A model generated the notes under the pieces. The model saw only the letters and a list, made by a program, of their open reading frames with translations, was not told where the DNA came from and ran no database searches. DNA of 40,891 bases from Chloroflexota bacterium (GTDB lineage Bacteria; Chloroflexota; Anaerolineae; JAAEKA01): positions 1 through 40,891 of the forward strand of contig JAYELL010000048.1 of the NCBI GenBank assembly GCA_034717495.1, read 5' to 3'. The translations under genes and the position numbers were made by a program. Shown here piece by piece: positions 6,866 through 19,444 of this stretch (positions are counted from its first letter, which is position 1; each line of letters opens with the position of its first letter).

Positions 6866-9025
6866 ATGGCTCGCATGAATACCGACATCGACTCCCTATC
6901 CATGTTCGACGGCGAACGCCGGACCAGATCCTGGAATGTCCGGACCGTTGAGCCGCACCCTTCCTCCCCCCAGGCTACCTCCCAGGGCAATCTGTATATT
7001 TTATTGGAGATTAGCGGAGAACCGGAAGCTTCAGCGCGGCTCTATCGCCTGCTGATGAATGCCATCCAAGGGGTATACTACGACTCGACCAGCGACGTGC
7101 GAGCAGCCCTTACTGAGGCTATACTCGCCGGGCATAAAGCTCTTCAGGAACATAACAGCGTGTACCCGGATGCGGTTCAGCTTGCCGGAGTCAACTGCGC
7201 TGTGCTCAAGGGCAATGAGCTTTTCCTGGGCGTCGGCGGCCCCGCCATGGTTTTGGTCGGACATCCGGAACGAGTCGAGCAATTCCCCGGGGAGATCCAC
7301 CTGGAGGCTGCTCCTTTAGGGGGCGCTGCGCTGCCCCATATCGAGATCTTTCGGACCTCTATCGGGAAAGAGGCGCTCATTCTGCAATTGGGAAGCAATT
7401 GGGCCGCGAATGTGCCATTGCGCAGGCTGGCCGGGGTCGCCCTTGCGTCCGATACCGAGACCGCCCTGGAATACCTGGAAACCCTGGCTCCCAGCGATGC
7501 AGACCTCAACGCCATGGCGGTTCATGTGACACCGTCAGCGCAGATCGCCGCCAGCGCGGAAGCGCTCGTCGCTCCCATCGTTGCTCCCCCGGCCGACCAG
7601 CAGGAAGAGACGCAAGAAGGGGAACCCGCTACAGAACAAGACGCGGCCGCTGATACCATCGAGGGAGAAGAACCGGTCGAACCAGAGGAAGTGATTGCCT
7701 CCGATGGGGAACGAGCCGTGGAGCTTGGCCAGGTCACAGCGGATCCTGAGCCCGTCGCCGAACCTGTGGTAGCAGAACCGCCCAAAAAACGGCGGTGGTG
7801 GCCCTGGCTATTGATACTGTTGATTCCGGCACTTATCGCAGCCGGTATCTATGCAGCACGCTGGTATCAACGGAGTGCGGTGGAGACGACAGTCGACAGC
7901 CTGATTCAGGGCGCTGTTGCTGCCTATGATGCAGCCATTCAGGAAGGTGTGCTGGACGAAACAGCCCGCGCGCAGCTTCAGGATGCCCAGGAACGGGTTC
8001 AGGAGGCCATTGAGCTGCTTCCCCAAGTCCCCGAGGCAGCCGATCTGCAAGCTGACATTCAGGCGCGCCTGAACGAAGTCAACAGTGTTACACCACTCTA
8101 TAAACTTCTCACGCTGCAGGAGCTGGGCGGTAGCGGCAGCGAGCCTTCCAAAATCGAGATGGACGGTGACCGCATCTACCTGCTTGACCGGGGACTCGAT
8201 CGCGTAACCCAGTATCGTATTGACAATGTGAGTGGCTTGATCCCGGAGACGTCAGCCGGGGTTCTGGCAGAGCGAGGTCAACCTTTGCCCGATGGACAAC
8301 TGGTGGGTGAACTGATGGACTTCGTGTGGGCCGACGCAGGTGGCAACCGAAACTCCAGTAATCTTTTGATCCTTGATAGCAACCGAAACCTGATCGAGTA
8401 TGACAGCGCGACGGGACTCTCTGCACTGGCTCTGGCCGACCGGGAGGCATGGCAGTCTCCCAAGGTCATCTCCAGCTTCATTGGCAACTTTTACCTGGTG
8501 GATGGCAGCGAGACAGGCCGCATACTGCGCTACCGCCCGACTGACGATGGCTACGGAAATGCCCCCGAGTCTTATCTGGAGGACGACGCCACTATCGATT
8601 TTTCGCGGGCCATAGATGTGGGCATCGATGGCGATATCTGGGTACTGTACCGGGACGGCATGGTGCAAGATTTCTCTGAGGGTCGCCAACGGGCTCTGGA
8701 ATTTGAGCAACCACCCGACACACCGTTAGCTCAGCCCCAGGCCTTCTTTGTGGGATCCGAGGCAGGCACCGCCCAGAATCTCTATATCGTCGACAGCGGA
8801 AACGGACGAATTGTGGAATTCGACAAAACAGGCAAATACCTGCAGCAATTCCGTCCTGATGACAGGACCGATCTGGAGAAGCTGCGAAAGATGCGAGACC
8901 TGTACGTTGATGAAATCGGCGGCTATTTCTACATCCTGACCGAGGATGGCCTGTATCGCACCGACATCCCCCAACCCCAGGTCGAAGCTGAGGTCGAAAC
9001 CGAAACGGACAGCGAGGAAAGCTAG
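6866..9025 (+). CDS. Membrane protein with a degenerate PP2C-like domain and extracellular NHL/beta-propeller
   Basis: This 719-residue protein has four visible parts. Residues about 37-225 resemble a PPM/PP2C phosphatase fold: helix AALTEAILAGHKALQEHN, then strands VNCAVLKGNELFLGVGGPAMVLV. The family's GDSR metal-binding turn is replaced by GGPA, so catalysis is doubtful. A Glu/Pro-rich linker follows (about 230-305), then one membrane helix at about 308-330 (WWPWLLILLIPALIAAGIY) after a KKRR stop-transfer cluster. After a helical segment, residues 410-705 form propeller-like repeats (ESYLEDDATIDFSRAIDVGI, NLYIVDSGNGRIVEFDKTG). The topology suggests a cytoplasmic pseudo-phosphatase coupled to an outside sensor. 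The ATG is preceded by AAAGGGG at good spacing. It is followed by an LCP gene, so a cell-envelope role is possible. Confidence 0.7.
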   Translation: MARMNTDIDSLSMFDGERRTRSWNVRTVEPHPSSPQATSQGNLYILLEISGEPEASARLYRLLMNAIQGVYYDSTSDVRAALTEAILAGHKALQEHNSVYPDAVQLAGVNCAVLKGNELFLGVGGPAMVLVGHPERVEQFPGEIHLEAAPLGGAALPHIEIFRTSIGKEALILQLGSNWAANVPLRRLAGVALASDTETALEYLETLAPSDADLNAMAVHVTPSAQIAASAEALVAPIVAPPADQQEETQEGEPATEQDAAADTIEGEEPVEPEEVIASDGERAVELGQVTADPEPVAEPVVAEPPKKRRWWPWLLILLIPALIAAGIYAARWYQRSAVETTVDSLIQGAVAAYDAAIQEGVLDETARAQLQDAQERVQEAIELLPQVPEAADLQADIQARLNEVNSVTPLYKLLTLQELGGSGSEPSKIEMDGDRIYLLDRGLDRVTQYRIDNVSGLIPETSAGVLAERGQPLPDGQLVGELMDFVWADAGGNRNSSNLLILDSNRNLIEYDSATGLSALALADREAWQSPKVISSFIGNFYLVDGSETGRILRYRPTDDGYGNAPESYLEDDATIDFSRAIDVGIDGDIWVLYRDGMVQDFSEGRQRALEFEQPPDTPLAQPQAFFVGSEAGTAQNLYIVDSGNGRIVEFDKTGKYLQQFRPDDRTDLEKLRKMRDLYVDEIGGYFYILTEDGLYRTDIPQPQVEAEVETETDSEES

Positions 9026-11947: not shown

Positions 11948-14674
11948 TTACTGAATCTGCTCGAGTTGCTCCGCCAGGCTGGCATTGGCATCTTCGGTGA
12001 GCTGATCCAGGGTCTCCTGAACAGGCGCACCGCCAGCAATGGCAGCCATAGCTTCCTCTGCCATGTCTCGTACGAAGTCATAGCCCGGTGCCGGCGGCTC
12101 GAAGGTGCCGTAGGGCAGCAATTCGAAGGCGGTCTGGTAGGCCGGATTCTCGGCGAAGTAGTCGTCCAGGCCCTCGGCCACGCTGGCGCGTACCGGGAAG
12201 TAGTTGCTGGCCTGCGCCCACTTGGCCTGCACATCAGGGCTGGTGTAGTGCTTCAGGAACAGCCAGGCAGCCAACTGCTGCTCAGACGTGGTCTTGGGAA
12301 TGCTGACGCTGGCGCCGTAGATGTTCTGCGCCGGCTCTTCAGTGGTATACGGGATCGGTGCAACACTCCAATTGAAGTTGGCACCTTCCTCCACGGCACT
12401 ACGATAGTATGGCAGACCTGAGCTGGAGCCCACTGTGAACAGCAGGCGGCCCTGGCCAAAGTCGGTCTGGTCGCCGTAGCGCTCCGTCACAATGGTGGCG
12501 CAGCCCTCTTCGAACAACTCCTGCAGGAACGACATCGCCGCCACCGCCGCCTCGTTGTTGTAGTCGTATTGGCCATCTTCGTAGTCGAAAACATCCCCAC
12601 CTCGAGCGAAGGTCCAGCTCGCGAAGCGGGAGGCATCCACGCTCAATTCGTAGCCGATGGGGCTGACATCGGTGCTGGCCCCGCTGTAGGGTGAGGCGCT
12701 AGCCGCACAGGCCATCTCCTTGAATTCTTCAGGCGTTGCCGGCGGTGCATCGTAGCCCAATTCCTTCAGCCAATCCATGTTGTAGTACATCACTTCCATG
12801 GAGCGGTTGGGCGGGAAGCCCAGACGGGCATTGCCAAAGTTGGGGAAGATGTCCTGGTTGAAGAAGCCTGAGAAGAAGTCCTTCTGCTCAGCACTGTTCA
12901 AGCCATACTTGATGCTCTCGACGTAGGGAGTCATGTCCACCAGCGCATCGCCCAACTGGTAAGTTGCAGCCTGATTCTGGTAGGCCACCACCAGGTTGGG
13001 AGCATCCTCGGTATTCATGAAGGTCAACATCTTGTTGAAGATGTCACCATAACCACCCTGGTACTCGGCGACCACTTCGATGCCATACTTGTTGGTATCG
13101 TTGAACTCCTGAACGATCTCCTGCAGCGCCGTCTCACGGTCGCGCGTGTGCTGGTGCCAGAAGAAGACCGTCTGTCCGCTGGGGTCGATCTTGGCCAGAG
13201 CGTCGGGCGATTCGGGAATCTGCTCGAGCTGTTCCGCCAGGCTGGCATTGGCATCTTCGGTGAGCTGATCCAGGGTCTCCTGAACAGGCGCACCGCCAGC
13301 AATGGCAGCCATGGCTTCCTCTGCCATGTCTCGTACGAAGTCATAGCCCGGCGCCGGCGGCTCGAAGGTGCCGTAGGGCAGCAATTCGAAGGCGGTCTGG
13401 TAGGCCGGATTCTCGGCGAAGTAGTCGTCCAGGCCCTCGGCCACACCGGAGCGTACCGGGAAGTAGTTGCTGGCCTCAACCCACTTGGCCTGCACATCAG
13501 GGCTGGTGTAGTGCTTCAGGAACAGCCAGGCAGCCAACTCTGCATCAGGGGTGGTCTTGGGGATACTGACGCTGGCGCCGTAGATGTTCTGCACCGGTTC
13601 TCCAGTGGTATACGGGATCGGTGCAACACTCCAGTTGAAGTTAGCGCCTTCCTCCACGGCACTACGATAGTATGGCAGACCTGAGCTGGAGCCCACTGTG
13701 AACAGCAGGCGGCCCTGGCCAAAGTCGGTCTGGTCGCCGTAGCGCTCCGTCACAATGGTGGCGCAGCCCTCTTCGAACAACTCCTGCAGGAACGACATCG
13801 CCGCCACCGCCGCCTCGTTGTTGTAGTCGTATTGGCCATCTTCGTAGTCGAAAACATCCCCACCTCGAGCGAAGGTCCAGCTCGCGAAGCGGGAGGCATC
13901 CACGCTCAATTCGTAGCCGATGGGGCTGACATCGGTGCTGGCCCCGCTGTAGGGTGAGGCGCTAGCCGCACAGGCCATCTCCTTGAATTCTTCAGGCGTT
14001 GCCGGCGGTGCATCGTAGCCCAATTCCTTCAGCCAATCCATGTTGTAGTACATCACTTCCATGGAGCGGTTGGGCGGGAAGCCCAGACGGGCATTGCCAA
14101 AGTTGGGGAAGATGTCCTGACCGTAGAAGCCGCTGAAAAAGTCTCGCTGCTCCTCAGCAGAGTAACCCCATTTGGCACTATCAACCAAATCGGTCATGTC
14201 AATGAGAGAGTCGCCCAGCTGGTAGGTCGCAGCCTGGTTCTGGTAGGCCACCACCAGATTAGGAGCGTCCTCGGTATTCATGAAGGTCAACATCTTGTTG
14301 AAGATGTCACCATAACCACCCTGGTACTCGGCGACCACCTCAATCCCGTACTCGTTGCTATCGTTGAACTCCTGAACAATCTCCTGGAGCGCTTCTTCCC
14401 GGCCGCGAGTGTGCTGGTGCCAGAAAAAGACCGTCTGCCCGCTGGGATCCACCTCTGCCCATGCATCAGCCGTCGCAGTCATATCCTGGGTAGAAGGCTT
14501 GGCCGTTGGAGCTTCTTCTTTGGCCTCTTCAACTTTTTCGGTCACCTTCTCGGCCACTTCTTCGACCTTCTCCTGAACCTGCTCAGATGGCTCATCCTTG
14601 CCGCCACAGGCGCCAAGCACCATTGCGGCGACGAGAATAATCGCCAACAGTATCCAAAGCTTCGACCTTGTCAT
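11948..14674 (-). CDS. Sugar ABC transporter solute-binding lipoprotein with tandem duplicated binding domain
   Basis: This 908-residue protein is about twice the usual size of a family 1 extracellular solute-binding protein. The N-terminus has a lipoprotein signal with lipobox LGAC (Cys23), then a charged Glu/Lys linker (residues 28-58). Two complete binding domains follow, about 74-490 and 495-908, both starting DPSGQTVFFWHQHTR and ending LTEDANASLAEQLEQI. The second copy has no signal and is joined through PESPDALAKI. The halves keep one register with a constant 1263-bp offset and no indels. The permease genes just upstream make it the binding component of a carbohydrate importer. ATG 14674 has GGAGGAG about 8 nt upstream. 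Fusion of tandem genes or an assembly error are both conceivable. Confidence 0.9.
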   Translation of the reverse strand: MTRSKLWILLAIILVAAMVLGACGGKDEPSEQVQEKVEEVAEKVTEKVEEAKEEAPTAKPSTQDMTATADAWAEVDPSGQTVFFWHQHTRGREEALQEIVQEFNDSNEYGIEVVAEYQGGYGDIFNKMLTFMNTEDAPNLVVAYQNQAATYQLGDSLIDMTDLVDSAKWGYSAEEQRDFFSGFYGQDIFPNFGNARLGFPPNRSMEVMYYNMDWLKELGYDAPPATPEEFKEMACAASASPYSGASTDVSPIGYELSVDASRFASWTFARGGDVFDYEDGQYDYNNEAAVAAMSFLQELFEEGCATIVTERYGDQTDFGQGRLLFTVGSSSGLPYYRSAVEEGANFNWSVAPIPYTTGEPVQNIYGASVSIPKTTPDAELAAWLFLKHYTSPDVQAKWVEASNYFPVRSGVAEGLDDYFAENPAYQTAFELLPYGTFEPPAPGYDFVRDMAEEAMAAIAGGAPVQETLDQLTEDANASLAEQLEQIPESPDALAKIDPSGQTVFFWHQHTRDRETALQEIVQEFNDTNKYGIEVVAEYQGGYGDIFNKMLTFMNTEDAPNLVVAYQNQAATYQLGDALVDMTPYVESIKYGLNSAEQKDFFSGFFNQDIFPNFGNARLGFPPNRSMEVMYYNMDWLKELGYDAPPATPEEFKEMACAASASPYSGASTDVSPIGYELSVDASRFASWTFARGGDVFDYEDGQYDYNNEAAVAAMSFLQELFEEGCATIVTERYGDQTDFGQGRLLFTVGSSSGLPYYRSAVEEGANFNWSVAPIPYTTEEPAQNIYGASVSIPKTTSEQQLAAWLFLKHYTSPDVQAKWAQASNYFPVRASVAEGLDDYFAENPAYQTAFELLPYGTFEPPAPGYDFVRDMAEEAMAAIAGGAPVQETLDQLTEDANASLAEQLEQIQ
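11954..14470. repeat. Tandem in-frame duplication, 1263-bp period
   Basis: Copy A runs from about 11954 to 13216 and copy B from about 13217 to 14470. Landmarks compared at both ends give the same 1263-bp offset. Positions 12384-12856 and 13647-14119 (473 bp) are identical by eye, whereas the flanking parts differ at many sites, including clustered amino-acid changes beside the identical block. Confidence 0.85.
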
Positions 14675-14770: not shown

Positions 14771-15670
14771 CTATCCCTTCAGACCGGAAGTGGCAATACC
14801 CTCGGTAAACTGCTTTTGGGTCAAAAAATACATAATGAGAATCGGGATCACTGTGATGACAGCGCCTGCCATCAGGAGTTGGGTCTCCGGACCTGCTTCT
14901 GTCACAAAGGTCCAAAGGCCAACCATCAGCGGTCGCCAATCAGGCTTGGTAGTCACCAGCAGAGGCCACAGGAAAGCGTTCCACGCACCGATAAATGCAA
15001 AGATGGTGACCGTCAGGATCGGTGCTACGCTCATGGGCAGCACGATGCGTAACAAAAAGCGAAAATGACCTGCGCCATCGATTTGGGCAGAATCCCATAG
15101 CTCATTGGGAATCTGAGCGAAAAACTGGCGCAAGAGGAAAATACTAAAGGCATTTGCCATGAAGGGTACCGTCAATGCAGGCAGCCTGTTGAGCCAGGTA
15201 CCACCGGGCAGGGGAATGACATCACCACGGATCATCAGGAAATTTGGGATCATGGTCACCGATTCCGGAATCATCATGGTTGCCAGCAAGATGGCGAATA
15301 GAACGTTTTTGCCCCAGAAATCGATGCGAGCGAAGGCATAGGCAGCCAACACGGATGATGTCAACAGTCCAGCCAACGTGACCAGCGTGATAATAACGCT
15401 ATTGAGAAAATATTTATCGAACCTGGCTTCCTCCCACGCCTCCACGTAGTTCGAGAATTGAGGTACATCGGGCAGCCATTGGCGATTGATCGTCTCTCCA
15501 AGAGTCATCAGAGAGGTCGATAACATCCAGAAAAAGGGCAGAAAGGCCAGAAACGCACCAAAGAACAGGATGGCGTATAGCACCAGGCGCCCAGGCTGAA
15601 TGCGAAAACCTGATGATTTAGAAGAGCTAACGCTCGACTGGTCATCCATGGTGGGTGCCGTACTAGCCAT
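14771..15670 (-). CDS. Carbohydrate ABC transporter permease, MalG type
   Basis: This 299-residue inner-membrane protein of the binding-protein-dependent transport superfamily has six predicted membrane helices; the first is LVLYAILFFGAFLAFLPFF. The EAA loop (LWDSAQIDGAGHFRFLLRIVLP) contacts the ATPase. The C-terminus QKQFTEGIATSGLKG is typical of MalG-like proteins. ATG 15670 is chosen over the longer frame because it overlaps the upstream permease stop by 8 nt (ATGGCTAG), which implies coupled translation. No ATP-binding subunit gene is present; such importers often share a general MsmK/MalK-type ATPase encoded elsewhere. Confidence 0.9.
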   Translation of the reverse strand: MASTAPTMDDQSSVSSSKSSGFRIQPGRLVLYAILFFGAFLAFLPFFWMLSTSLMTLGETINRQWLPDVPQFSNYVEAWEEARFDKYFLNSVIITLVTLAGLLTSSVLAAYAFARIDFWGKNVLFAILLATMMIPESVTMIPNFLMIRGDVIPLPGGTWLNRLPALTVPFMANAFSIFLLRQFFAQIPNELWDSAQIDGAGHFRFLLRIVLPMSVAPILTVTIFAFIGAWNAFLWPLLVTTKPDWRPLMVGLWTFVTEAGPETQLLMAGAVITVIPILIMYFLTQKQFTEGIATSGLKG

Positions 15671-16826
15671 AGAACACCTTCTCTCCAAAGACCTTGTTCT
15701 GGACCAAAGTCAGGGCCAAAATGATTGCAAAGAGAATCAACGCCTGGGAAGAAGCGTAGCCATATTGATTGGCCTTGTAAAAGGTATCGAAAATCTCCAC
15801 GCTTGCCACATCTGCCGTCCCCAGGGCCGATGGCTGTCGCATGACGTAAATATGATTGAAGGCCTTAAAGGTTCCGATGAAAGCAATTAGCGCCAGGTAG
15901 AAGGTAACAGGTGACAGGAGAGGCAAGGTAATGTATCGGAAAAGATGCCAGTTATTGGCACCATCGATCTTGGCTGCCTCATACAAGTCCCCAGGGATGG
16001 AGCCCAGGCCCGCCAGGAAGATAACCGTGTTATAGCCAATGTAGGTCCAGACACCAAAAAAGATGATCGACACCAGAGCCATGCTCGGTCCGGCGACCAG
16101 GCCGTCCAGATTCATGCCAAACATGGCATTGACAAAGGGAGCAGGCTCGAAGAGCCACTTTTGGGGATCCTGCCCAATGAGGGCCAAAGCCTGGTTGGCA
16201 AGAGAGCTTTCCCGGGGGCTAAAAATGGTGCGGAACACGACAGCTGTAGCCACCACTGGCGTGATGTAGGGCAGGAAGTAGATCATACGAAAGAACTCCT
16301 GCCCCTTGATATTCTGAAACAGAATGTATGCCAGCACCAGAGCAATACCTATTTCGGCTGGCACGGTCCCCAACGCATAGAATACCGTGCGGGGCAAGGC
16401 GTCGAGAAACCGGGGATCCCCGGTTTCCTGCATTCGGCCCCAGCCCATCATCAGCAGCCAACCGGCTCCGATCAGAAGCAAAGCGCAGATAACACCGGTG
16501 ACCAGACCCCGGTTGGTCGCAGCTTTAAAAGCATGTTGCCAAACGATGTAGGCTGCAACCAAAAGCAAAATCCCACCGATGAAGAAGACCATACCCTGCC
16601 AGTCACCCAGGGCCTTTTCGAAGTTTCCAAGACCAATGAACTTGCCCTGGCGTACACGCCAATTATAGGTGCTCACATACACGGAGTAACCAATGGGGAA
16701 GAGTCCGAAAATGGCGATGATCAAGAAAGCAGGGAAGACAAAAAGATAGCCTGCAAGTTGCTCCTTGATGTCTATCCAGCGCCACCGGCGCCGGGGTTTG
16801 GGGGCTGGAGATGCTGCGGCTGACAA
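15663..16826 (-). CDS. Carbohydrate ABC transporter permease, MalF type
   Basis: This 387-residue permease is first in the operon. A basic N-terminus (KPRRRWRWIDIKE) precedes the first helix (AGYLFVFPAFLIIAIFGLFP). An extra pair of hydrophobic segments at about 80-130 (MVFFIGGILLLVAAYIVW; GLVTGVICALLLIGAGWLL) makes it longer than the 290-310 residues usual for the family, similar in concept to the extra helices of E. coli MalF. The EAA motif YEAAKIDGANNWHLFRYITLP is intact. Together with the MalG-type permease and the duplicated binding protein it forms a sugar importer. Confidence 0.9.
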   Translation of the reverse strand: MSAAASPAPKPRRRWRWIDIKEQLAGYLFVFPAFLIIAIFGLFPIGYSVYVSTYNWRVRQGKFIGLGNFEKALGDWQGMVFFIGGILLLVAAYIVWQHAFKAATNRGLVTGVICALLLIGAGWLLMMGWGRMQETGDPRFLDALPRTVFYALGTVPAEIGIALVLAYILFQNIKGQEFFRMIYFLPYITPVVATAVVFRTIFSPRESSLANQALALIGQDPQKWLFEPAPFVNAMFGMNLDGLVAGPSMALVSIIFFGVWTYIGYNTVIFLAGLGSIPGDLYEAAKIDGANNWHLFRYITLPLLSPVTFYLALIAFIGTFKAFNHIYVMRQPSALGTADVASVEIFDTFYKANQYGYASSQALILFAIILALTLVQNKVFGEKVFYG

Positions 16827-17036: not shown

Positions 17037-19325
17037 CTATCGAGCTTTGCGATTGCTCTTGCTGGCCTGCTTCATGAGAATCTTGTGATAGTTTCTCTCC
17101 CGCTCACCATCAGTTGGGTGTTTCAAGAAATAGCTCCCATCGGAATGTAGATCCCACGCCAGGCGATTATCATGCAAGGCCTCCTGTAATAAATTGATGA
17201 GACGCTGTTGGAGCTCAGGCTCATCGATAGGAGCTATCAACTCCACCCGCTCGTTGAGGTTGCGCCCCCGCCAATCGGCACTGCCGATAAATGTCCGTGG
17301 TTCGCCATTGTTGTGGAAATGGAAGATGCGATCGTGCTCCAGGAATCGTCCCAGTATGCTTACCACACGGATATTCTCACTGATCCCTGGCAATCCTGGT
17401 CGTAAACGAGTATGTCCCCGCAAGATTAAATCAATCTGCACGCCGGCCTGGGAAGCCTTATACAGTTTCCTGATAATCGATACGTCATCCAATGCGTTCA
17501 TTTTGGCGATGATCCTGCCGCTGCCATAGCTCTTCTGGAACGAAACCTCCTGCTGGATCAAGTCCTCGAATGTACTGCGCATGTACTGGGGCGCGACAAT
17601 AACCTCGTCATATCGCTGGCCAGGCGCGTAACCTGTCAGATAATGAAAGAGCTTAACCAGATCGTTGCCCAGCCTTGGAGAGCAGGTCAGCAACCCTAGA
17701 TCGGTATACAGTTTTGCGGTCTTGGCATGGTAATTCCCTGTGCCGATGTGACAGTAGGTCCGTGGCCCATCGGGCTCTTCGCGCACGATCAAGGTTGCCT
17801 TGCTGTGGGTTTTCAAGCCCACCAGGCCATAGGTCACATGAACCCCTGATGCCTCCAACATCTGGCCCCACTCGATATTGTTGGCCTCATCAAAGCGAGC
17901 CTTTACCTCAACCATTACCGCTACCTGCTTGCCCTGCTCTGCGGCATGCATCAATGCCTGAACAATGGGGGATTCATCGGAAGTGCGATAGAGCGTCTGT
18001 TTGATCGCGACAACCCGAGGATCAGCCGCGGCTTCCTCGATCAGTCGTTGTACGCTGGCAGCGAAGGATTCATAGGGATGGTGAACGAGGATGTCTCCCT
18101 GTCGCAAAATGGCAAAGATGTCTTGCGTAGCCTTGGTCTCTCCTTCATGTAACAACCGGCCTGGAATGACCGGCTCCCAATTTTTGTATCTCAAACGGGG
18201 ATAGTGCATGTCGGCGAGCTGAAAACATGCTGTGAGATCGAGCAGCCCATCGACCTCGACTACATCCTCGGGCTTCAAATCCAGCTCTCGTTCGAGAAGC
18301 CTACGAACATTGGATGGCATCGCCTTGTCCGCTTCCAGCCTTACCACCGGCGCAAAACGCCGTTCACGCAGTTCCCCGGAGATCATGGCCAAAAGGTCCT
18401 CGGCCTCCTCCTCGTCCCGACGAACATCGGCGTTTCGGGTAATCCGGAAGGGATAGACACCGAGGATATCCATGCCACCAAAAAGCTCACTGGCATGGTG
18501 GGCAATCAACTGCTCCACCGGTAGTAAATGTTTTTTGCCATCGGGGCGATCCCCTTTTAGCTCGATCCACCGTCCCCGGGTCGGAGGTACTTTCAGTCTG
18601 GCGAAGTGAATAGTTCCCTGCTTTGGATTACGCAATACCACCGCCAGGGAAAAACTGAGATTCGAGATAAATGGGAAAGGATGCCCCGGATCCACCGCCA
18701 GGGGAGTCAGCACGGGATAATAAAAGGTCCGAAAGGTCTTTTGCAGGAACTCTCGTTGCAGCGCAGTAAGATCATCGTAATCGCAGATGACGATGCCCGC
18801 CTCTTCGGCCAATGCGGGCTTCAGCTGTTTCTGCCAGATCTCCGTCATGGTGCCGTGCATGAGCAGCGTGGCTTCCCGGATGAGTGCCAGCTGTTGCGTT
18901 GGCGTGCGCCCATCGGGCGTCAGCTTGCGCACCCGGGCTGCCTTCTGCCGTTTCAGGCCACCCACCCGTTTCTGAATAAACTCATCCAGGTTGCTGGCGG
19001 TGATCGCCACAAAGCGCACCCGTTCCAGCAACGGCGTGCGTTCATCCATAGCCAACCAGAGAACGCGCCAGTTGAAATCGATCCAACTAAGCTCCTGATT
19101 GAAATAGAGCGATGGGTGCTTGAGTGACGCATCCTCGGGCACCGGCTGGGGAACAACCGCCCGGGGCACACACGACTTGCGCAAGCCGTCCGTTTCCGGG
19201 TCCGAACCGTTGCCAAGCTGCTCGTTTCCCCTGGATTGCCTATCCTTTTCCCCAACATCGGTGGCATCGGTCCCCGACTCTCCAACAGGTACGGCCGTTT
19301 TTTTGGTCTCGATCTTGTCTGCCAT
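17037..19325 (-). CDS. ppk1: Polyphosphate kinase 1
   Basis: This 762-residue protein fits PPK1, which reversibly polymerises the ATP gamma-phosphate into inorganic polyphosphate. About 60 charged N-terminal residues precede the N domain (SLYFNQELSWIDFNWRVL; LERVRFVAITASNLDEF). The first phospholipase-D-like half carries the autophosphorylated His in HIGTGNYHAKTAKLYTDLGLL. The second half contains the other catalytic His in RIFHFHNNGEPRTFIGSADW. ATG 19325 is preferred to 19343 because GAGGAG lies about 10 nt before it, whereas 19343 has no spacing for its AAGG. It is transcribed from an extended -10 promoter about 115 nt upstream, separately from the channel gene. Confidence 0.95.
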   Translation of the reverse strand: MADKIETKKTAVPVGESGTDATDVGEKDRQSRGNEQLGNGSDPETDGLRKSCVPRAVVPQPVPEDASLKHPSLYFNQELSWIDFNWRVLWLAMDERTPLLERVRFVAITASNLDEFIQKRVGGLKRQKAARVRKLTPDGRTPTQQLALIREATLLMHGTMTEIWQKQLKPALAEEAGIVICDYDDLTALQREFLQKTFRTFYYPVLTPLAVDPGHPFPFISNLSFSLAVVLRNPKQGTIHFARLKVPPTRGRWIELKGDRPDGKKHLLPVEQLIAHHASELFGGMDILGVYPFRITRNADVRRDEEEAEDLLAMISGELRERRFAPVVRLEADKAMPSNVRRLLERELDLKPEDVVEVDGLLDLTACFQLADMHYPRLRYKNWEPVIPGRLLHEGETKATQDIFAILRQGDILVHHPYESFAASVQRLIEEAAADPRVVAIKQTLYRTSDESPIVQALMHAAEQGKQVAVMVEVKARFDEANNIEWGQMLEASGVHVTYGLVGLKTHSKATLIVREEPDGPRTYCHIGTGNYHAKTAKLYTDLGLLTCSPRLGNDLVKLFHYLTGYAPGQRYDEVIVAPQYMRSTFEDLIQQEVSFQKSYGSGRIIAKMNALDDVSIIRKLYKASQAGVQIDLILRGHTRLRPGLPGISENIRVVSILGRFLEHDRIFHFHNNGEPRTFIGSADWRGRNLNERVELIAPIDEPELQQRLINLLQEALHDNRLAWDLHSDGSYFLKHPTDGERERNYHKILMKQASKSNRKAR

Positions 19326-19444
19326 CTCTATCAGACTCCTCATCCTTGAAGCAGTTGGGCGGCAATCCCAGAAACCATTTTCGCGGGATCATACGTCACC
19401 GTCGCATCCATGAAAGACCCATAACGTCCGACTCCCGTACTGCC

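Follow-up and report, generated by a model that had tools for sequence, protein, structure and literature searches.

Models of ABC import generally assume a single binding domain per free binding protein, and the locus described here raises the question of why one lipoprotein should carry two. It lies in a 40,891-nt stretch of contig JAYELL010000048.1, hereafter the window, in a draft genome of 120 contigs from an Anaerolineae-class Chloroflexota bacterium (GCA_034717495.1). The answer that we favor, and hold to be probable though well short of certain, is that a UgpAEB-type ABC importer here relies on a binding protein whose entire domain has been doubled in frame, offering two equivalent receptors per lipid anchor to one permease pair.

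Architecture of the locus

A 908-aa open reading frame spans exactly 11948 to 14674 and is read on the minus strand, from 14674 to 11948; the initial annotation had the coordinates right and left the strand unstated. Its central claim, one lipoprotein with two complete binding domains that arose by a genuine in-frame duplication, is borne out by Pfam, by the repeats, and by an AlphaFold2 model. The parts of the gene and its partner permeases are as follows.

11948..14674, minus: two-domain UgpB-like lipoprotein, tandem SBP_bac_8, 908 aa (ORF, Pfam, AlphaFold2 model)
14606..14674, minus: signal peptide with lipobox LGA-C23 (translation and lipobox pattern)
14450..14605, minus: Glu/Lys-rich stalk, residues 24-75, present in a single copy (translation, AlphaFold2 model)
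13217..14449, minus: binding domain 1, residues 76-486 (Pfam, repeat comparison, AlphaFold2 model)
13187..13216, minus: junction linker PESPDALAKI, residues 487-496 (coincides with the end of single-domain proteins)
11951..13186, minus: binding domain 2, residues 497-908 (Pfam, repeat comparison, AlphaFold2 model)
14771..15688, minus: UgpE-like permease, BPD_transp_1 (Pfam and NCBIfam; gene order in relatives)
15663..16826, minus: UgpA-like permease, BPD_transp_1 (Pfam and NCBIfam; gene order in relatives)

Pfam finds two SBP_bac_8 stretches in the protein (E 5.6e-66; 223.6 bits in total against a cut-off of 27), and in a profile scan of the genome each domain scores about 121 to 124 bits and falls within the UgpB-like CUT1 cluster. 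The lipobox LGAC with Cys23 matches the sequence pattern of a lipoprotein signal, and lipidation is predicted from it. Both domains are complete in the AlphaFold2 model (mean pLDDT 83.8), whose pTM of 0.53 leaves their relative placement undefined. The stalk is mostly of low confidence, with residues 17-70 below a pLDDT of 50 and disordered.

The reading frame stops after domain 2, and the permeases are separate genes that lie upstream of it on the same strand; the order permA-permE-SBP is kept at nearly all related loci with enough sequence. The genome has genes for MalK-type ATPases at other loci. A polyphosphate kinase 1 gene (17037-19343, minus) lies immediately upstream of the permeases and possibly hints at a phosphorus theme. 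On the plus strand of the window, a 719-aa reading frame (6866-9025) has no Pfam or NCBIfam match.

Mosaic identity of the two copies

Residues 66-486 and 487-907 align in a 421-aa register without indels, with 35 of 421 positions differing (91.7% identity), and the 1263-bp spacing of the direct repeats, noted at the outset, is confirmed. Outside the junction there are 28 amino-acid differences, clustered at residues 91-185 and 358-410; those singled out earlier around GDxLxDMT and SxxAEQxDFF (residues 155-185) are real. In the DNA the differences are strongly clustered: 66 of 330 nucleotides differ over residues 76-185, none of 471 over residues 186-342 (157 central residues with identical DNA), 21 of 204 over residues 343-410, and 4 of 228 over residues 411-486. 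The longest identical run between the copies is 473 nt, against a maximum of 190 nt when the same differences were shuffled 10,000 times. Copy comparison and shuffles together define the two tracts.

13647..14119, minus: 473 nt in copy 1 that match copy 2 exactly, likely a gene-conversion tract
12384..12856, minus: the corresponding 473 nt in copy 2

Because the differences are clustered and the identical run is so long, the mosaic is likely the mark of gene conversion between copies that had already diverged.

Tandem binding proteins in the genome and its relatives

The window protein is not alone. Pfam scans of its genome find at least 12 tandem binding proteins, the window protein included (11 doubles and 1 triple): seven two-domain SBP_bac_1/8 proteins (contigs C48, which is the window, C113, C1, C43, C14, C5, and C24), alongside five Peripla_BP_4 proteins, of which four are doubles (C5, C103, C39, and C85) and one is the triple (C4). 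No tandem was found among the SBP_bac_5 proteins of this genome. Of about 40 SBP_bac_8 proteins in this genome, 7, or about one in six, are doubled, whereas four single-contig genomes of the class yield 127 matches and no doubled one (Fisher p 3e-5, for a comparison of few genomes made after the first result was seen). Tandem Peripla_BP_4 proteins do occur in two of these four closed genomes (G227 and G325), and since these are single-contig genomes, draft assembly fails as a general explanation. Two of the tandem loci merit separate mention: the triple is a 906-aa protein with domains 65-70% identical (L151:5446-8163, minus; G000 contig C4), and on contig C5 two neighboring operons (L125:3666-9904, minus; G000) contain one tandem each, of 836 aa (SBP_bac_1 type) and 728 aa (Peripla_BP_4 type), with copies 97-98% identical.

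Among homologs of the window binding protein itself, sought in class members and GTDB contigs, most have a single domain, and doubling is thus not needed for transport. True in-frame doubles were found in at least 5 other genomes (L037, L038, L039, L104, and L105), so that relatives come in both forms and not, as the initial annotation had allowed, in the single-domain form only. The L038 double sits within a 1.34-Mb contig. In L039, from G188, the contig end cuts the second copy; in G019, of the same genus, the gene is split across two contig ends, which is consistent with an unresolved repeat. Several candidates fell away: long reading frames in G001:C49 (L029) and G042:C71 (L031) are binding proteins joined to an unrelated upstream frame, and G128 has two adjacent but separate UgpB-like genes. 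G002:C164, with two matches in one frame, is still a candidate, although the reading frame picked there did not show the tandem.

In a tree of these proteins, each copy of a double is placed nearest to its partner. Such a tree alone cannot count origins, because the double on contig C24 behaves as an old fusion with young-looking copies. Its ortholog in another genus (G005, contig C226) is likewise doubled, with a junction remnant in common, and between the two, 122 codon sites pair the copies within a genome versus 3 that are position-specific. On this codon comparison, the C24 pair shows a doubling common to two genera, with copies that have been homogenized within each genome. The C103 double and its ortholog in the closed genome G227, of another family, give 120 within-genome sites versus 0, which fits independent duplication as well as conversion.

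These data bear on the possibility that the doublings are a neutral by-product, frequent in-frame duplications that persist without benefit since secreted modular proteins tolerate domain doubling. Copy identities from 25% to 99.5% within one genome suggest that doublings arise repeatedly, and doubled and single-domain forms intermingle in the tree, where an AU test rejects a single clade for all four close doubles (p 5e-7), a result that concerted evolution plus loss could mimic. However, both copies stay open and similar in each tandem, at least one doubling goes back far enough for two genera to have it in common, and recent long in-frame duplications are almost confined to binding proteins in a sample of 433 reading frames of at least 280 aa (824 kb of the genome, partly chosen near binding-protein genes, with the first half of each protein compared with the second). 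The nearest case outside binding proteins in that sample is a triple DsbA/thioredoxin-like lipoprotein of 627 aa at about 50% identity (L144:10162-12042; G000 contig C38). We consider neutrality rather unlikely.

Probable ligand and predicted contact residues of the two domains

The domains were at first described as sugar-binding, which is probably wrong. The closest solved relative, by sequence and fold, is the dinucleotide-binding protein of Thermus thermophilus (PDB 7c0f and mutants), which is single-domain and about 29-30% identical to the window domains; UgpB comes next. The four phosphate contacts of UgpB (Tyr, Ser, Ser, and Tyr) are present in both domains, as Y121/S204/S330/Y404 and Y542/S625/S751/Y825, and the same four are conserved in dinucleotide and glycerophosphocholine binders (PMC12718374). 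With the UgpAEBC glycerol-phosphate importer of E. coli, Phaeobacter, and M. tuberculosis (PMC12718374), the window system thus has in common these contacts, the UgpA/UgpE-type partners, and the Gly and Arg of UgpB. It departs from UgpB in having two domains instead of one, Gln for the Glu contact, and Tyr and Ser in both domains in place of the tryptophan clamp (W192 and W195, E. coli precursor numbering); the NCBIfam UgpB equivalog NF008211 scores 153.2 bits, below its cut-off of 411. Of the eight residues mutated in the dinucleotide-binding PDB entries (Y56, F79, N81, S127, Y224, T240, Y246, and Q274), five are identical, two conservative, and one changed, and the two domains agree at every one of the eight, in an alignment at about 29% identity.

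Genome context points in a similar direction. An ExeM/NucH-like secreted nuclease gene, with NCBIfam scores below the curated cut-off, lies upstream of the operon in 13 related loci. Beside the window operon there is no nuclease, polyphosphate kinase being there instead, and the strong ExeM match of the genome is unlinked. Given the Thermus dinucleotide binder as nearest structure and the nuclease genes upstream of those 13 operons, we infer that the importer encoded here takes up phosphodiesters, probably dinucleotides, and not sugars; on the exact ligand the balance is about even.

The initial annotation had also proposed that the two domains might bind two ligands, and a version of this idea is that, like those of GlnPQ, they have diverged, or are diverging, toward separate ligands that a single permease would import. 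Every mappable contact residue of UgpB and of the dinucleotide-binding protein has the same letter in both window domains, which makes two ligands unlikely; moreover, the DNA of the central 157 residues is identical, and conversion opposes divergence. The 28 clustered amino-acid differences lend the idea some weight, as does L105, an older double whose copy 2 lacks three of the four phosphate-contact residues, and so do hybrids that combine different types of binding protein. We regard it as quite unlikely for the window protein.

The hybrids are of several kinds. Fusions of the same UgpB-like domain to PhnD occur in L042, L045, L046, L047, and L072, with phnC and phnE genes next; in four of these loci (L045:2863-10107, L046:2875-10263, L047:2862-10282, and L072:2800-9790) the hybrid lipoprotein gene lies between ugpAE-like permeases and phnC-phnE-like genes, and one protein may serve two different transporters. 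L108 has a PnrA-UgpB fusion. A 1019-aa lipoprotein with three domains, PhnD-PhnD-UgpB, adjoins a type I phosphodiesterase gene (L107:4695-7751, minus; G145), and in G005 SBP_bac_3 and SBP_bac_5 are joined in one reading frame (L030:2406-4832).

Finally, that an assembly error merged two genes, or a single gene, into one reading frame is highly improbable despite the draft genome and the 473-nt exact repeat, because doubles recur in at least 5 other genomes from unrelated assemblies, at least 12 tandems are found in this genome and others in two single-contig genomes, the junction is in frame with a new linker, several tandems have exact repeats of at most 11-110 nt, which are easy to assemble, and one orthologous pair has a common junction in two assemblies.

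What the doubling may do

A close precedent is GlnPQ of Lactococcus lactis, in which two substrate-binding domains (SBDs) separated by a 14-aa linker are part of one chain with one translocator (PMC8025302). The window protein is similar in having two complete domains, a short linker, and one translocator; however, in GlnPQ the two domains are fused to a transmembrane domain and have different amino acids as ligands, whereas the window chain is a free UgpB-type lipoprotein with matching sites. In OpuA there are also two SBDs per translocator, and tethering gives a millimolar local concentration (PMC11065425), but the two come from a homodimer with one per permease chain. Since linker length affects transport in GlnPQ (PMC8025302) and OpuA reaches such concentrations, the notion that the doubling raises receptor density is reasonable. 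The higher capture efficiency proposed initially is plausible. A benefit of tethering is not guaranteed, because in GlnPQ each domain binds on its own, with no cooperativity between the two (PMC8025302).

For two equivalent receptors on one anchor, the following scheme can be proposed. Both domains would recognize the same ligand, of phosphodiester type and most likely a dinucleotide or a comparable product of nucleases, and the flexible stalk and short linker would let either dock on the same UgpA/UgpE dimer, powered by an ATPase whose gene lies at another locus of the genome. With the domain doubled, receptors would be locally more concentrated for each anchor and each translocator. Recombination between the copies would amount to a dynamic state of mutual conversion, in which copies are probably gained or lost easily.

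The wider finding is the genome-wide scale of concatenation, the window protein being one of at least 12. Concatenating several binding domains looks like a real habit of the lineage and not an assembly error. A bolder reading, which we put forward tentatively and would not yet back over its alternatives, is that linking binding proteins in tandem serves this Anaerolineae-type lineage as a general means of uptake, with doubled and tripled proteins in several ABC importer families and, elsewhere in the class, hybrids feeding neighboring transporters. On this reading, copies would be kept alike by gene conversion, and the window protein would be an example that scavenges dinucleotides set free by secreted nucleases. 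A literature search, in which subscription journals were poorly covered, found no description of free concatenated binding lipoproteins used genome-wide and nothing relevant beyond GlnPQ and OpuA.

In such a genome one can ask, as a natural experiment, whether uptake is limited by the number of receptors per anchor, and its tandem series, from 25% to 99% identity, allows gene conversion, divergence, and hybrid formation to be followed. The operon context suggests a route for uptake of nucleic-acid breakdown products. For annotation, the lesson is that long binding-protein reading frames are not necessarily assembly errors. A further tandem, MalE-like, of 845 aa and with 87% identity between its copies, was seen in G021 (L028:3218-5752, minus), where the permease operon is otherwise unremarkable.
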